Positions 15,066 to 22,292 of a DNA stretch of 27,945 nucleotides are shown here, in pieces; position 1 is the first letter of the stretch, and each line of letters begins with the position of its first letter. The translations under genes were made by a program, and so were the position numbers. This DNA is from a virus: IMG/VR virus record IMGVR_UViG_3300048587_000305, positions 1 to 27,945 of that record; one strand, written 5' to 3'. The notes under the pieces were generated by a model. The model was not told where the DNA came from. It worked only from the letters and a program-made list of their open reading frames with translations, and did no database searches.

Positions 15066-16973
15066 TCACCAGGAGGTTGCGAAGTTGCCAGGGCGCTTCA
15101 CGGGCGGGCGCTTTGTCTGAGGCGGTGCAAGCGGGTGCGCGCTCTGGGCGACTACTGCTCCATCCGGGCCAGCAGATGACCCCATCACCCGCCCTTCCGC
15201 CACATCCCAATCCATCCTCGTCCGCCGATGCAACCGTAGCTCCGGGTGATGCGTGGCGGCGTAGGCGTAAACCCAGGTGTCGAGGGGTTCATTGCGGGCA
15301 CCGGTTCGTTTCTCGAAGCGGTTTTTTACTGGGTTGTAGGTCTCGCTGACCAGGCCGCGGAAGTACTCGGGCGGCAGGTCCTCGCTGAGGTGCACGTGGC
15401 GGTTTTCGGGCGGCTTGTCGGCGTCGGTGCCGAGCAGGCTGTAGAGCTTGTGCTTGATGTTGACGGTGCCCACCTGGTGGGTATGCACGCCGCGCTTGTC
15501 GAGGCGGCCGCGCCAGTTGATGTCCTGCAGCTTGCCGGGGCCAAGCACGGGGGCGTTGTTGGGGACGGCGCCGAAGATGACCATGGCGCGGCGCAGCATC
15601 TGCTTGCGCACGAAGGCCTTGACGGCTTCGGTGCGGTGGCCGCCGCCGTCGATGGCCACGGCGTCGACGCGCAGGGTGGTGCCCATGGCGTGCTCGATCG
15701 GTCGGTTGAGCAGATCGGTCAGCTTCACCCAGACCTCATCGTCTGCCGGATCGCCGGGGAGCTCGACGTAGTCCAGAACCCAGCACACCAGGCCGCGGCC
15801 CCAGCCGACGATCTGCACCGCCAGGCGGTTGTCCTGCGTGTCCACGCCGGCAGTGATGGCCAGCACGCCGGCAGGCGCCGTGCGCAGGCGGTAGGGCTCG
15901 GCGCGATCGGCGATGACGTTGTGCTTGACCGCGCGCATGGCCGGGTCTTCCCACGGCTCGGCCAGGCGGTCATTGACGAAGGTCTTGAGCTTGGCCGGAT
16001 CGTTCTGGGCGTCGCGCCACATGGCGACCAGGTCGAGCCAGCGCGGCCCCAGTCCGATCGGGTAGTACAAGCAGTTGATGTGGTAGCCGCGGATGCGGGC
16101 GCCGGGCGCTTCTGGCACCCAGCGGCCGGCCTCGATCATGGCCTTCTTGCTGTGCTCTTCGATCACCGCGCCGCACCTCTGGCAGGCGTACCAGCACTGC
16201 GAGCCGTCCGGCGTCCAGTGCAGGCCACCCCATTCAAGGTGCTGTTCGTGGCCGCAGTGCGGGCACGGCACGTAATAGCGGCGCTGGTCCGACTTGTTCC
16301 ACAATTGTTCGATGCGGCTGATCCCGCGGATCTGCGGCGAGCTGATGTAACAGCGCTTGCTGGTCGCCGGGAATGCCGAGGTGCGGCCATCCAACATGGC
16401 GACCGGATCATCGCCGCCCTGCAGCGCCGCGGCGAACTCGTCGAGCTCGTCGACCAGCAGCTTGCGCACGCTGGTCGACTTCAAGCGCTGCGGGCTGCCG
16501 GCGTGTTCCAGGTACAGCTGGCCGCCGGCAAAGTCCTTGAAGGTGCGCGTGTTGCTGGCGTTGCGGCTGCTGGTGCTGGTGAGCGACTTGCGCACGGCCG
16601 GCGTTTCGTCGAGCAGCGGGTTCAGCTTCTGCGCCACCCACTTGTTCATCGACACCTCGCCCGGCAGGCATACCATGAACGGACCCGGGTCGTGGTCCAT
16701 GGTGTAGCCCAGCCAGTTGATGCCGATCTCGGTCTTGCCGTACTGGATCGGGAACATCAGTGCCACGTCGCGCACCGAGCTGCGCGAGCTGAGCGCGTCC
16801 ATGGGCTCCCGCAGCGGCGGGTTGCGGTGCGTGCGCCAGCGGCCCGGCTCCGCGCTGCCCTTGCGGCTGAGGTAGCGCTCAGCGTCCGCCCACTGGCTGA
16901 CGGTCAGGTGACGCCGGGGAGCGAGGGCTCGGGCTATAGCTCGAAACAAGAACGGGGCGGCTGCAGGCGTCAT
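15066..16973 (-). CDS. Terminase large subunit, GpA family
   Basis: This 635-residue protein is the packaging motor and nuclease, of the lambda gpA family (lambda gpA 641). The N-terminal ATPase shows the Walker A-like 'FPIQYGKTEIG' (about residues 74-84) and a Walker B 'KLLVDELDEF' (171-180). A zinc-finger-like pair follows ('CPHCGHEQ' and 'CQRCG'). The nuclease part has 'ITAGVDTQDNRLAVQIVGWG' and 'VDAVAIDGGGH', with the expected acidic residues, and the family's 'NEPLDTWVYAYAATHHPELR' near the end. It translocates DNA into the prohead and, by analogy with lambda, cuts concatemers at cos. The ATG overlaps the terminase small subunit stop (ATGA), so the two are translationally coupled. Confidence 0.95.
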   Translation of the reverse strand: MTPAAAPFLFRAIARALAPRRHLTVSQWADAERYLSRKGSAEPGRWRTHRNPPLREPMDALSSRSSVRDVALMFPIQYGKTEIGINWLGYTMDHDPGPFMVCLPGEVSMNKWVAQKLNPLLDETPAVRKSLTSTSSRNASNTRTFKDFAGGQLYLEHAGSPQRLKSTSVRKLLVDELDEFAAALQGGDDPVAMLDGRTSAFPATSKRCYISSPQIRGISRIEQLWNKSDQRRYYVPCPHCGHEQHLEWGGLHWTPDGSQCWYACQRCGAVIEEHSKKAMIEAGRWVPEAPGARIRGYHINCLYYPIGLGPRWLDLVAMWRDAQNDPAKLKTFVNDRLAEPWEDPAMRAVKHNVIADRAEPYRLRTAPAGVLAITAGVDTQDNRLAVQIVGWGRGLVCWVLDYVELPGDPADDEVWVKLTDLLNRPIEHAMGTTLRVDAVAIDGGGHRTEAVKAFVRKQMLRRAMVIFGAVPNNAPVLGPGKLQDINWRGRLDKRGVHTHQVGTVNIKHKLYSLLGTDADKPPENRHVHLSEDLPPEYFRGLVSETYNPVKNRFEKRTGARNEPLDTWVYAYAATHHPELRLHRRTRMDWDVAEGRVMGSSAGPDGAVVAQSAHPLAPPQTKRPPVKRPGNFATSW

Positions 16974-17581
16974 TCGGCATCTGCCTGCTTGGCCAGCGCC
17001 AGAAACTTACGCGAAGTCTCAGCAAGCGCATATTCGATTGCTTCCGCCAGAATGGCCCGGACTTCGCCCTCATCAGAGCTTGCTGCGAGCTGCGGAGACA
17101 GGACATCAGGCAGCGACTCAAACCCAGTTCGCAAGATCGTAGTGGCGATTTCAGCCGCCGATAGAACATCACCTCGAACCAGCAGCTCCCCGCGAGCCAC
17201 CTGCACCTTGGTCTCGATCTCTTGCGCTAGAAAGTGTTCCTTCTTGGCTCTGGACAACTGATAACTTGGGAATCCGCCAATCTCAGCCTCGTCGGCGGCC
17301 TGCGTCGCGTCCTGCGACGGTTCCTCGCCGTCTGCCATGTCAGCGGTGGCGCTTGCCGCCTGCGCGGCGCTGCGGGCCGCTGCGTGGCGATCCACGACGC
17401 CCTGCTTGCTCTGGTCGGCGGTTTCAGCGATGCGTGCCAGCGAAGCCTGCAGCCAGCAGCGCCGGGCATCGTCGCTGAGCACCAGCCGGCCAGCCTGGCG
17501 CAGCTCGGTGACGTAGGGCTTGCCCTTGCCCAGGGCTTTGGCCAGATCAGCGAAGCGCACCAGGCGGTCAGGCTTTTCCAT
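16970..17581 (-). CDS. Terminase small subunit, Nu1-like
   Basis: This 203-residue protein starts at ATG 17581 (GGAG four bases before). The N-terminal 'RFADLAKALGKGKPYVTELR' is a winged-helix DNA-binding element of the lambda Nu1 type, which recognises the R sites of cosB. Further on an Ala/acidic linker ('EEPSQDATQAADEAEIG') precedes a helical region ('SRAKKEHFLAQEIETKVQVA') that matches the usual oligomerisation/large-subunit binding part. Immediately upstream (17582-17888) is a repeat-rich block that may be its binding site. An in-frame extension to 17707 would run through these repeats and reads as low-quality sequence, so the shorter start is chosen. Confidence 0.87.
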   Translation of the reverse strand: MEKPDRLVRFADLAKALGKGKPYVTELRQAGRLVLSDDARRCWLQASLARIAETADQSKQGVVDRHAAARSAAQAASATADMADGEEPSQDATQAADEAEIGGFPSYQLSRAKKEHFLAQEIETKVQVARGELLVRGDVLSAAEIATTILRTGFESLPDVLSPQLAASSDEGEVRAILAEAIEYALAETSRKFLALAKQADAE

Positions 17582-17641
17582 CACTCCACTACCCCATTCT
17601 TTTCGAGCGTCGCGAAGGTGAAAAGACCTGCGCACGCGCGA

Positions 17642-17878
17642 TGTGCGGGTGTGCGGGCTGCTGTGCGGGCTGTCTGTGCGGGCAAAACACATTGATCCGT
17701 AAGGCATTTGCGGGCTGTGCGGGGGTTACATGAATTACGGCGTGCGCAGGCACGTTCCGTATGAGAGTTGAAAATGTATCTCTCACGCGCACGTGTAGGC
17801 GCTGGGCCGCACAGCCCGCAAAAGCGATCAAAATCAATGGCTTTTGCCCGCACAGACAGCCCGCACAGACCCCGCACA
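17642..17878. repeat. Nested inverted repeats with TGTGCGGG iterons (candidate cos or origin)
   Basis: The non-coding gap 17582-17888 holds a dense symmetric structure. An exact 26-bp inverted repeat has arms 17662-17687 and 17842-17867; inside it an exact 16-bp inverted repeat has arms 17707-17722 and 17807-17822 (TTTGCGGGCTGTGCGG and its complement); further in, CGTGCGC/GCGCACG (17741-17747 and 17787-17793) and TGAGAG/CTCTCA also pair. TGTGCGGG occurs at 17642, 17650, 17662, 17675 and 17716, and its complement at 17847, 17860 and 17871, often 11-13 bp apart. The block lies directly upstream of terS, where lambda cos is found, and directly downstream of the primase-helicase gene, so either a packaging site (cosB-like R sites) or a replication origin is possible. 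Confidence 0.75.
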
Positions 17879-17888
17879 GCACGCACAT

Positions 17889-20204
17889 TCATGACTTCGT
17901 CGCCTCCTTGTAGTCGGCAACGGCCCATCGAAACTCGCTGATGTGGTCCCCAAGCCAGTTGACGCGGTCTGCACCGGGCGGCATATCGCAGTCACCGAGC
18001 ATCAACGTGCCGTGCGGCCCTTTGGTATTGGACCCCATGCGGTAGCGTTCCCGGCGATTCACCACCTTGTGATGCCGCTGCAGCGCGTTGATCAGCTTCT
18101 GCTGAGGCGCCGCCCGGTTACCAGTGCGCTTGCACCAGATGGTGTAGGCCTCATAAACGTCCTCGCTGAGCGCAGGCCGCGCCATCAGCCCGGGTATGTC
18201 GCCGTTGTTCAGCGCGTAGTAGAAGCGCGCCGTGCTGTCGAGAGACAGGCCGATCAGCTCCAGCTTGGCCGCCGTCATCGGCGGCTTGCTGCCGGCGCCG
18301 AACTCGCCCAGGTCGACCGTGAGCAGGTAGTCGTGAAGCGCTGCCACGCCGCCGTTGGCCAGCTCGTCAAGCACCGCCTGGTAGTACTCCGGCGACAGCT
18401 GCACCGGCGTCCAGATCACGGCATGGCGCCGGTCATCCTCTTCGAGCACCACCGGCATGGCCTCATTGCTGAGGAACACCATGTTCACGTGGTTGCGTTC
18501 GTCGTAGGCGGCGATGTTCTTCGGGTTGATGCGGATCCACTCGCCGGTGATGAACGCCTTGAGCTTGTTCTTGACGTGGTACAGGTCGGAGCGAGCCACG
18601 ACTTCGTCGGCGATCAGGAACAGCTTGCGCGACGCCCAGTCGTTAAAGCGGTCCTCGATGGCGCTTTGATCGATCACCCGGCCGTAGTGACCGTAGATCG
18701 ACATCAGCGCTTCAAAGAACAGGTTTTTCCCGGTGCCCTGCGGGCCGTGGATGACCAGCGTCGACTTCATCTTCGCGCCTGGCCGCTGGATCGGCAGCGC
18801 GATCCACTTCAGCACCCACTGGTAAAGCGCCTCGGGGTTGGAATCGTTGGCGCACATGTAGCGCAGCAGATCGAGCAGCCTGTCGCACTTGCCGGCCACC
18901 GGCGTGGTCGGCCAGCCGCCCCACAGGTTGCAAGTGATTTGCTGATCTTCGCCGCCCGGATCAAAGCCCACCTCACGCACCCGCACGATGCTGCGCTCCG
19001 GGTGTTCCGCCCATGCCCGGTGCAGATCGCGCGCCACGCAGGCGTCGCGCATGTCCGACAGCGCCAGCAGCGCGTGTTCCTGACGATCAAACACCGTCCC
19101 GCCCTGCCCGTAAACCAGCGCGTATCGTTCCAGCAGTTCGTCGAGAGTGTCGATCGGTCGCAGGCTTTCCGCCCCCGCTCCCCCTGGTGTGGTTGAGCGC
19201 GCCGCAGCTTTTGGGCTAGTGCGCCAGCCAAGCTCCGAGAGACGGGCCTCGACCTGGTTGCGCACCACGTGCAGGCCTTCGAGGGCGTGTAGGTCGTTAA
19301 AGTCGGTCAGCTTGGTGCCGCTGCGGTCGAACTTCTCGCGCCGCGCGACCTCGTCCGCAAACGATGGCTTCACCCAGGCTCCGCCGACCTCGACCGCGGC
19401 GGTGCTGGCGTAGCTCACGCCGGCGTTGCCCTCGCTGAAGGCGTCGTCGTCGGCGCAGATCAGAATCTTCACCGTCGGGTAGCGCTTGTGCAGCGCCGCG
19501 GCGACCGGTGCCAGGTTGCCGGCATCGTAGGCCACGGCGATCGGCAGGCCCGTCGCCTCGAACAGACTGGCGGCGGTGGCGTAGCCCTCGGCGATCAGCA
19601 GCACCGTGGTGGGAATCCCAACCAGGTGGAAGTGGCCCTTTTTGATCAGACCGCGTGGCCAGAATTCCTTTGCCGGCCGCCCCTTGGCTTTCGCTTCGGA
19701 TCCGGTGCGGATAACCTGCAGGCCCTGGATCGTCCCGGTCACGTCGAGCAGCGGCAGCACCATCGCGCCGGACGGCGAGAAGCGCACGCCGTGCGCACCG
19801 ACACCCTTGCGCTTCAAGTACTCGCATTCACCAGTCGGCGAACACGCGGCCCAGGTCTTCGCTGCAGCAGCTGCCGCGCGTGCGCCTTCGCGCTTGCGCT
19901 CCTGGTCGGCGCGCTTGCGGTCTTCGGCCATGCGCCGACGCATCGTCTCCAGCTGCTCGCGCGACACGTCGCTGCGGCGGATCTCGACCTTCTGCGCGTT
20001 GTTGTTCGCGCCGTGCCAGATGCCGAACGATCCGACCACCAGCGGATCGCCGCCCACGCTGATGAGCTCGTGGAGCATGTACCAGCCGCGCTTTTCCCGA
20101 TCACCCTCGACCCGACACCGCACCATGCGGCCGATCTCGATGTGATCGATCTGCAGGCCGGCGGCCTGCAACTGCGCCAGAACGTCGCCGTGGTTCGCGC
20201 CCAT
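17889..20204 (-). CDS. Phage primase-helicase (Toprim plus superfamily 3 helicase)
   Basis: This 771-residue protein probably primes and unwinds phage DNA at the origin. The N-terminal half has a Toprim-like domain: 'LLIAEGYATAASLFEATGLP' with the catalytic Glu (about residue 206) and 'ILICADDDAF' with the acidic cluster (251-254). The C-terminal half is a D5/P4-type helicase with Walker A 'GPQGTGKN' (487-494), Walker B 'KLFLIADEV' (527-535) and the downstream 'VFLSNEAMPVVLEEDDRRHA' segment. A basic coiled region (about 80-115) lies between start and Toprim. The ATG follows the upstream stop directly (TGAATG). No separate helicase loader or replication initiator is seen in this operon, so this protein may be the sole replication protein, as in P4-like modules. 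Confidence 0.92.
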   Translation of the reverse strand: MGANHGDVLAQLQAAGLQIDHIEIGRMVRCRVEGDREKRGWYMLHELISVGGDPLVVGSFGIWHGANNNAQKVEIRRSDVSREQLETMRRRMAEDRKRADQERKREGARAAAAAAKTWAACSPTGECEYLKRKGVGAHGVRFSPSGAMVLPLLDVTGTIQGLQVIRTGSEAKAKGRPAKEFWPRGLIKKGHFHLVGIPTTVLLIAEGYATAASLFEATGLPIAVAYDAGNLAPVAAALHKRYPTVKILICADDDAFSEGNAGVSYASTAAVEVGGAWVKPSFADEVARREKFDRSGTKLTDFNDLHALEGLHVVRNQVEARLSELGWRTSPKAAARSTTPGGAGAESLRPIDTLDELLERYALVYGQGGTVFDRQEHALLALSDMRDACVARDLHRAWAEHPERSIVRVREVGFDPGGEDQQITCNLWGGWPTTPVAGKCDRLLDLLRYMCANDSNPEALYQWVLKWIALPIQRPGAKMKSTLVIHGPQGTGKNLFFEALMSIYGHYGRVIDQSAIEDRFNDWASRKLFLIADEVVARSDLYHVKNKLKAFITGEWIRINPKNIAAYDERNHVNMVFLSNEAMPVVLEEDDRRHAVIWTPVQLSPEYYQAVLDELANGGVAALHDYLLTVDLGEFGAGSKPPMTAAKLELIGLSLDSTARFYYALNNGDIPGLMARPALSEDVYEAYTIWCKRTGNRAAPQQKLINALQRHHKVVNRRERYRMGSNTKGPHGTLMLGDCDMPPGADRVNWLGDHISEFRWAVADYKEATKS

Positions 20205-21547: not shown

Positions 21548-21562
21548 ATAGCATCGCGCTAT
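21548..21562. promoter_or_regulatory. Operator dyad over repressor start codon
   Basis: ATAGCATCGCGCTAT is a 15-bp dyad whose last two bases are the first two of the repressor ATG. TAGCAT (21549-21554) is placed as a -10 that would start transcription at or near the A of that ATG. An imperfect related dyad, CTATCGCAAGCGCTAG, lies at 21510-21525, between this site and the cro-proximal site. Confidence 0.65.
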
Positions 21563-22292
21563 GCGACCCGTCCGAGAAATCAGAAAGACCAACCTGATCG
21601 CCTTGATGGAAAGGCGTGGCGAGAACCAGGCCTCATTTGCTCGGGCGCTTGGGAAAGACCGCAACCAGGTCTATCAGTGGCTCAAGTCGGAGGGCGAGTC
21701 GAGCGCCCGCGGGATCAGCGACACAACTGCCAGGGAGATAGAGCGCACGCTCGGTTTGCCGGTGAATTGGATGGACCAAGACCACGACGGCCGCGTCGTC
21801 ACTGTTCCAGCTTTCACCATCAGGGCTGTGGACGGTCGCGATGGCGTCAACTTTGAAACGGATGTGATGATTCCGGTCATGGACATTGAGGTGTCAGCCG
21901 GCAACGGGACGCCGGTGCCCGAGTTCCTGCCGACTCGCTACGAGCTCCCTTACCAGATCGCCTGGCTTCATTCTGTCGGAGCCCGACCCACGGACATTCT
22001 GATCATGCCCGTTCGCGGCAGAAGCATGGAGCCCGTCCTGTGGCACGGCGACAAGGTTGTGCTTCATCGTGGCCGGACCGACGTGCGAGACGGCTGCGTC
22101 TATGCGTTGCTGCATAACGGCGAGGCGCGCGTGAAGCGACTGTTCCGCAAAGGCGCTGGCCTTCGGGTAACAAGCGACAACCCGGATAAGCAGCGTTATC
22201 CAGATGAACTGGTAGAGCCTGAAGATATGCACCGCGTGCTGATCCTTGGGCAAGCAATCGACCGGATGGGCGCAGGAGGGCTTGGGCTATGA
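21561..22292 (+). CDS. CI-like repressor, LexA/S24 autoprotease type
   Basis: This 243-residue repressor keeps the phage in lysogeny. The N-terminal HTH is visible in 'ENQASFARALGKDRNQVYQW' (about residues 21-40), and the C-terminal S24 peptidase/dimer domain in 'RGRSMEPVLWHGDKVV' with nucleophile S155 and 'GEARVKRLF' with K192. The likely self-cleavage site is A113-G114 in 'EVSAGNGTP', so RecA-dependent (SOS) induction is expected. The ATG is not preceded by a well-spaced ribosome site; the dyad overlaps it and a -10-like TAGCAT is suitably placed for a leaderless mRNA, as in lambda cI. The stop overlaps the start of the WYL-TerB-like gene (ATGA), making that gene part of the lysogenic transcript. 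Confidence 0.92.
   Translation: MRPVREIRKTNLIALMERRGENQASFARALGKDRNQVYQWLKSEGESSARGISDTTAREIERTLGLPVNWMDQDHDGRVVTVPAFTIRAVDGRDGVNFETDVMIPVMDIEVSAGNGTPVPEFLPTRYELPYQIAWLHSVGARPTDILIMPVRGRSMEPVLWHGDKVVLHRGRTDVRDGCVYALLHNGEARVKRLFRKGAGLRVTSDNPDKQRYPDELVEPEDMHRVLILGQAIDRMGAGGLGL

Follow-up and report, generated by a model that had tools for sequence, protein, structure and literature searches.

A mirrored iteron block beside a phage primase-helicase gene as a probable replication origin read by the C-terminal winged helix of the neighbouring initiator

The stretch of DNA analysed, hereafter the window, is a virus record of 27,945 bp in which a non-coding gap of 307 bp (17582-17888) lies between the stop codon of a primase-helicase gene (17889-17891) and the start of terS (17581). 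Portal and capsid genes accompany terS and terL downstream of the repeat block contained in this gap, and the gene of a CI-like repressor lies at 21561-22292. The DUF5906 domain of the primase-helicase was recognised by Pfam with an E value of 1.4e-22, and its assignment as an SF3-type helicase was also backed by a sequence match to the NrS-1 polymerase and by the folds of the NrS-1 and SaPI5 proteins. The relevant features, in order of position, are as follows.

15066..16973, minus strand: terL, of the GpA type.
16970..17581, minus strand: terS, of the phrog_57 family, with a Nu1-like DNA-binding domain; not the protein that the repeats follow.
17582..17641: 60-bp leader separating terS from the block; it contains a motif (CGCGCGCG...TTTTTC...CGAAA...GTAGTGG) common to relatives in which terS directly follows.
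17642..17724, plus strand: terS-proximal iteron array, kept in relatives, of six 9-bp sites (17642, 17650, 17662, 17675, 17707 and 17716) with at most one mismatch to TGTGCGGGC.
17661..17687: left half of the 27-bp inverted repeat, the longest exact one.
17725..17804: centre of 80 bp between the arrays, rich in alternating purine-pyrimidine steps and the putative duplex-opening site.
17784..17797: alternating purine-pyrimidine tract CACGCGCACGTGTA of 14 bp, the longest such tract in the 27.9-kb window.
17805..17887, minus strand: primase-proximal mirror array of six sites (17805, 17814, 17846, 17859, 17870 and 17879).
17842..17868: right arm of the 27-bp inverted repeat.
17889..20204, minus strand: primase-helicase, the proposed initiator, with a Toprim primase part and a DUF5906 SF3-type helicase.
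18000..18167, minus strand: C-terminal winged-helix region of the primase-helicase (residues 680-735), the proposed iteron-binding domain on the basis of AlphaFold modelling and covariation.

Exact copies of TGTGCGGG occur eight times in the gap, on the plus strand at 17642, 17650, 17662, 17675 and 17716 and on the minus strand at 17847, 17860 and 17871, with just two more copies in the remaining 27.6 kb of the window. Allowing one mismatch to TGTGCGGGC raised the count to twelve 9-bp sites, six in each orientation, those on one side of the centre being all plus and those on the other all minus. The 27-bp repeat and an exact inner inverted repeat of 16 bp (17707-17722 and 17807-17822) together form arms of 62 nt that are 85% complementary and 84 nt apart. 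Neither property was approached by shuffled sequence: the commonest 8-mer of the gap was present in eight copies as against at most three in 1000 dinucleotide shuffles, and the longest exact inverted repeat measured 27 bp, whereas none in 60 shuffles exceeded 14. The mirrored inverted repeats and iterons that the initial annotation had placed in the 307-bp gap are thus borne out beyond shuffled-sequence expectation, with some adjustment of detail: of its nested exact repeats of 26 and 16 bp, the shorter was as described and the longer proved to be 27 bp; its eight half-sites correspond to the eight exact copies of TGTGCGGG within a set of twelve sites; and the block, given as 17642-17878, does start at 17642 and extends to about 17887.

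A search with the primase-helicase as query returned 61 viral and nine genomic loci, 66 of which carried enough sequence past the gene for inspection. Mirrored arrays directly followed the primase-helicase stop codon in 63 of these 66, the other three (L013, L058 and L067) being without a clear array. The usual layout comprised about six sites each way, with spacings between neighbouring sites clustered at 9, 12, 31-32, 43-44 and 55 bp; all within-array spacings were phased at about 10.8 bp, which puts the sites on the same side of the helix. The repeat word itself was far from constant, 16 distinct words (assigned by hand, partly by eye, from a computed consensus and in one register) being recorded among 44 non-redundant loci; these included TGTGCGGGCT, TGTGCGGCAT, TGTGCGGTAT, TGTGCAGGGT, TGTGCCGGGT, TGTGAAGGGT, TGTCGGCCAT, TGTTCCGCAT and TATACCGGGT. 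A nucleotide search of phages with the block as query gave no match, and a search of viral contigs with TerS as query found no relatives, since TerS diverges fast.

Several individual loci merit separate mention. The leader motif was present only where terS directly follows the block, namely in the window, L003, L008, L011, L012, L014, L015 and others. In Stenotrophomonas phage S1 the deposited gene gp2 (L073, 2454-2804) extends across the iterons and is unlikely to be genuine. Loci L052 and L063 were identical in the helicase part and 45% alike in residues 1-320 of the primase, a mismatch attributed to truncation rather than domain swapping because L052 starts inside the gene at a contig edge.

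The position of the block directly before terS and terL, together with the Nu1-like DNA-binding domain of the former (phrog_57) and the GpA type of the latter, favours its interpretation as a cosB element, in which TerS would occupy repeats flanking a central cosN and the GpA-type terminase would cut there. However, more than 20 relatives have intervening genes that put terS 0.5-3.7 kb downstream, and their block is still, unchanged, at the primase gene. Arrays were also present right after distant primase-helicase homologues in Pseudomonas phages SC_9, pAN, PG1 and LPPA56, Moraxella phages Mcat1 and Mcat4, and Halomonas phage H4907; where terminase genes are annotated in these distant phages they lie 1-3 kb from the arrays with other genes between, and the TerS of PG1 belongs to another family, the P27 type. 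The arrays thereby persist in the company of other terminases.

They persist likewise on small plasmids for which the PLSDB gene tables, themselves incomplete, list no terminase gene, and in which a related primase-helicase is followed by short iterons. These include pMP1 of V. vulnificus, pMNOD07 of M. nodulans, a Roseomonas plasmid and pW47-1 of P. mirabilis, among others; the plasmid homologues are only 23-31% identical to the window protein, over part of the helicase region, and pMP1 and the Roseomonas plasmid show the mirror layout most clearly, the plasmids of C. freundii and E. coli less so. Six such loci (L163-L168: pMP1, pMNOD07, the unnamed Roseomonas plasmid, pW47-1, pIsolateG_E and pRHB04-C06_4) combine a DUF5906 primase-helicase and iterons with an unassigned replicon type; two of them carry genes annotated as phage tail proteins, and the group may therefore consist of satellites of phages or of plasmids derived from them. 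A lambda-type cos should be present beside terminase genes and absent without them, and the distribution of the block is not of this kind.

The repeat words were also compared with the proteins encoded on either side. The correlation between iteron distance and protein distance peaked at 0.41 over primase-helicase residues 681-720, and was near zero along TerS. Mantel tests returned r = 0.40 for primase-helicase residues 660-735 and 0.31 when the contribution of residues 1-640 was removed (p = 0.0005 in each case, the lowest value that the permutation test could give), the corresponding values for the TerS DNA-binding domain being 0.14 and, in partial form, 0.06. When 20 non-overlapping pairs of nearest relatives were compared, with identity taken relative to that of the helicase, a difference in word was accompanied by a loss of identity in residues 680-735 (-0.30 versus -0.10, p = 0.0015) that was greatest in the wing, residues 715-735 (-0.42 versus -0.13, p = 0.0003). 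In the same 20 pairs, identity over TerS residues 9-60 was unaffected by a change of word (p = 0.52). The columns covarying with the word included 702, 706, 722, 729 and 731 on the recognition helix and wing, in an unadjusted list in which columns elsewhere also score. A parsimony count of the 16 words on trees of the primase parts and of TerS gave no separation, 18-19 changes being required on every tree.

Particular pairs illustrate the trend. The words of L024 and L029 are one base apart, and these loci share 97-99% of the rest of the primase-helicase (99% of the helicase) and 98-100% of the TerS DNA-binding domain, the wing being 50% identical. Conversely, the window and L003/L007 have the word TGTGCGGGCT in common, yet TerS residues 1-60 are just 38-42% identical, a finding difficult to accommodate were TerS the reader of the repeats. 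One Pseudomonas group mostly carries TGTGTTGGGT; its members L112 and L153 have TGTGCAGGGT sites and are conspicuously different in the recognition-helix region, with old-type sites remaining at the outer end in L153. The left array of L153 (7688-8100) contains an expanded tandem run of TGTGCAGGG beside leftover TGTGTTGGG sites, an arrangement that suggests a specificity switch in progress.

On these sequence comparisons, the repeat word appears to track the C-terminal winged helix of the primase-helicase, and not TerS. The initial annotation had proposed a new specificity matched to the winged helix of TerS: the idea of words matched to a winged helix holds, the matching domain being that at the C-terminus of the primase-helicase, and the attribution to TerS is contradicted, as changes of word are unrelated to divergence of the TerS DNA-binding domain. 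The comparison of related phages with alignment of the winged helix that it had put forward found that the arrays stay with the primase gene and that the word is not tied to the TerS domain. The repeats do not follow the TerS DNA-binding domain in evolution as would those of a lambda-type cos, and cosB, the packaging function suggested by the initial annotation, was rejected as the main function of the block on the combined grounds of the covariation results, the relatives with a distant terS, the phages with another terminase family and the plasmids; as an explanation it is now highly improbable.

Dual use, whereby an origin would also form part of a packaging site where terS adjoins, with cosN for example in the centre or in the leader (17582-17641), is a separate matter. 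In GpA-type phages cos usually lies near terS, and the restriction of the common leader motif to loci in which terS directly follows the block is in keeping with such an arrangement. Against this, the word shows no covariation with TerS, and the leader could equally be a translation leader for terS or part of the origin as a cosN candidate; dual use is accordingly rated as unlikely, though better placed than cosB alone.

Repeated short intergenic sites can also serve as operators, and the CI-like repressor encoded nearby would be one candidate ligand for an operator array. However, twelve phased and mirrored sites, kept with the primase-helicase in phages and plasmids alike and tracking its C-terminal domain, would be unexpected of sites bound by a phage repressor or regulator, and there is very little likelihood that this is what the block represents.

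AlphaFold models of the whole primase-helicase and of its C-terminal part alone both contained a winged helix, the domain having a mean pLDDT of 87.6 and consisting of a helix (680-694), a recognition helix (701-712) and wing strands (715-723 and 726-735). Structure searches with the isolated domain returned generic winged-helix matches alone (best Z 5.5; Foldseek E 0.04 to Cdc6/Orc1), and the likeness of the modelled fold is claimed no further than the winged-helix class. Beside the place of the block and the covariation of the word, the model is a third independent line of evidence, and it points to this domain as the predicted reader of the iterons.

Comparable systems have been described. 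The C-terminal domains of SaPI Rep and Cch2 bind iterons that lie shortly after their own genes or operon, possibly as two hexamers (PMC7581432). SaPI Rep and SaPI5 PriRep1 resemble the window system, as predicted here, in having a primase-helicase or helicase with such a C-terminal domain and short iterons immediately after the gene that encodes it (PMC7581432), and the SaPI5 primase-helicase (7ola) aligns with residues 312-766 of the window protein at Z 15.9; it differs in containing an archaeo-eukaryotic primase (PMC7581432), whereas that of the window protein is Toprim. The window family differs further from SaPI in its widely varying iteron words, its alternating purine-pyrimidine centre and its occurrence in complete phages beside terminase genes. 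In SCCmec, the C-terminal domain of the D5-type helicase Cch2 likewise binds short repeats just downstream of its operon, but with three iterons only, separate primase subunits and no mirrored 6+6 arrays described (PMC7581432).

The closest solved relative by sequence (E 1.1e-23) is the NrS-1 polymerase (6k9c, 6k9e, 6lrb), which is also alike in fold over the helicase and C-terminal domain (Z 23.8, rmsd 4.1, 360 residues), although it has a Prim/Pol domain where the window protein has Toprim. Its Tail domain has been termed a completely novel fold, with no link to iterons made (PMC7102993). This Tail falls within the aligned range (window residues 353-737) that holds the proposed iteron-binding winged helix; from that alignment it is predicted to be an origin-binding domain.

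The centre between the arrays was compared with its surroundings across loci. Purine-pyrimidine alternation exceeded the locus background in 43 of 44 loci, which are related to each other and hence not independent, the mean longest alternating run being 16.8 in the centre versus 6.9 in the background. Mean AT content was not raised (0.41 in the centre versus 0.39 in whole loci); in the window the centre stood at 0.47 versus 0.34 overall, and values among relatives extended from 83% AT in V. vulnificus pMP1 and Moraxella Mcat1 down to 0.19-0.30 in many GC-rich relatives. An AT-rich centre, expected from SaPI, was thus not general among the loci, and AT-rich spacers within the arms were only mildly enriched. 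A Z-prone opening element within the alternating centre is offered as a proposal only.

The block is very probably the replication origin of the phage, bound by its own neighbouring SF3-type primase-helicase through the C-terminal winged helix, an interpretation drawn from sequence covariation, modelling and analogy and supported by the anatomy of the block, its fixed place by the initiator gene in phages and plasmids, its helical phasing and the covariation of word and winged helix. Weighing the other way are a centre that in many GC-rich relatives lacks the AT-richness of the classical opening element, the undiscriminating parsimony count, the three relatives in which an array was not clear, and the low identity and partly blurred layout of the plasmid homologues. 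Of the functions that the initial annotation had entertained, the replication origin is thereby strongly supported by the fixed place at the primase gene and by a word that follows its C-terminal domain, while cosB is contradicted by a TerS domain that is not followed and by a block that stays where terS is not nearby, and on plasmids also. The primase-helicase would bind the twelve iterons through its winged helix, and two opposed rings, a double hexamer by analogy with SaPI Rep and Cch2, would probably assemble on the two mirrored arrays; the centre would then be opened between them, and two forks could be started by the helicase and primase activities of the same protein.

Origins in which an adjacent SF3-type primase-helicase acts on iterons are an already known kind, as in SaPI and SCCmec. 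Phage P4 and phage N15 provide further instances: the P4 alpha protein (with ori and crr) and N15 RepA are primase-helicase initiators with iterons in or near their own genes, in words and a layout that differ from those of the window. In the literature searched, neither the present repeat words as a phage origin nor this phage origin family was found. What is new is the combination of a frozen geometry with hypervariable words, together with the assignment of a probable domain that reads them, the alternating centre and the role predicted for the NrS-1 Tail. A tentative generalisation, held with rather less than even confidence, is of a family of phage and plasmid origins with near-frozen, mirrored and phased arrays of about 6+6 sites around a centre of about 70-90 bp, in which the word would diversify freely into more than 16 specificities together with the winged helix in the manner of incompatibility groups, and a Z-prone core rather than an AT-rich element would open.

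The findings correct a natural misreading of the block as cos, and provide a likely role for the unexplained Tail domain of the NrS-1 polymerase; an opening site that is GC-rich with alternating purines and pyrimidines would, if confirmed, be unusual. As the layout is kept and the word changes together with the domain, the relatives offer a large natural collection of initiators, each matched to its origin. With at least 16 words at constant geometry and a covarying domain, the recognition code of SF3-type initiators becomes directly testable, as does the question of whether diversification of the word avoids cross-talk between co-resident phages and plasmids.
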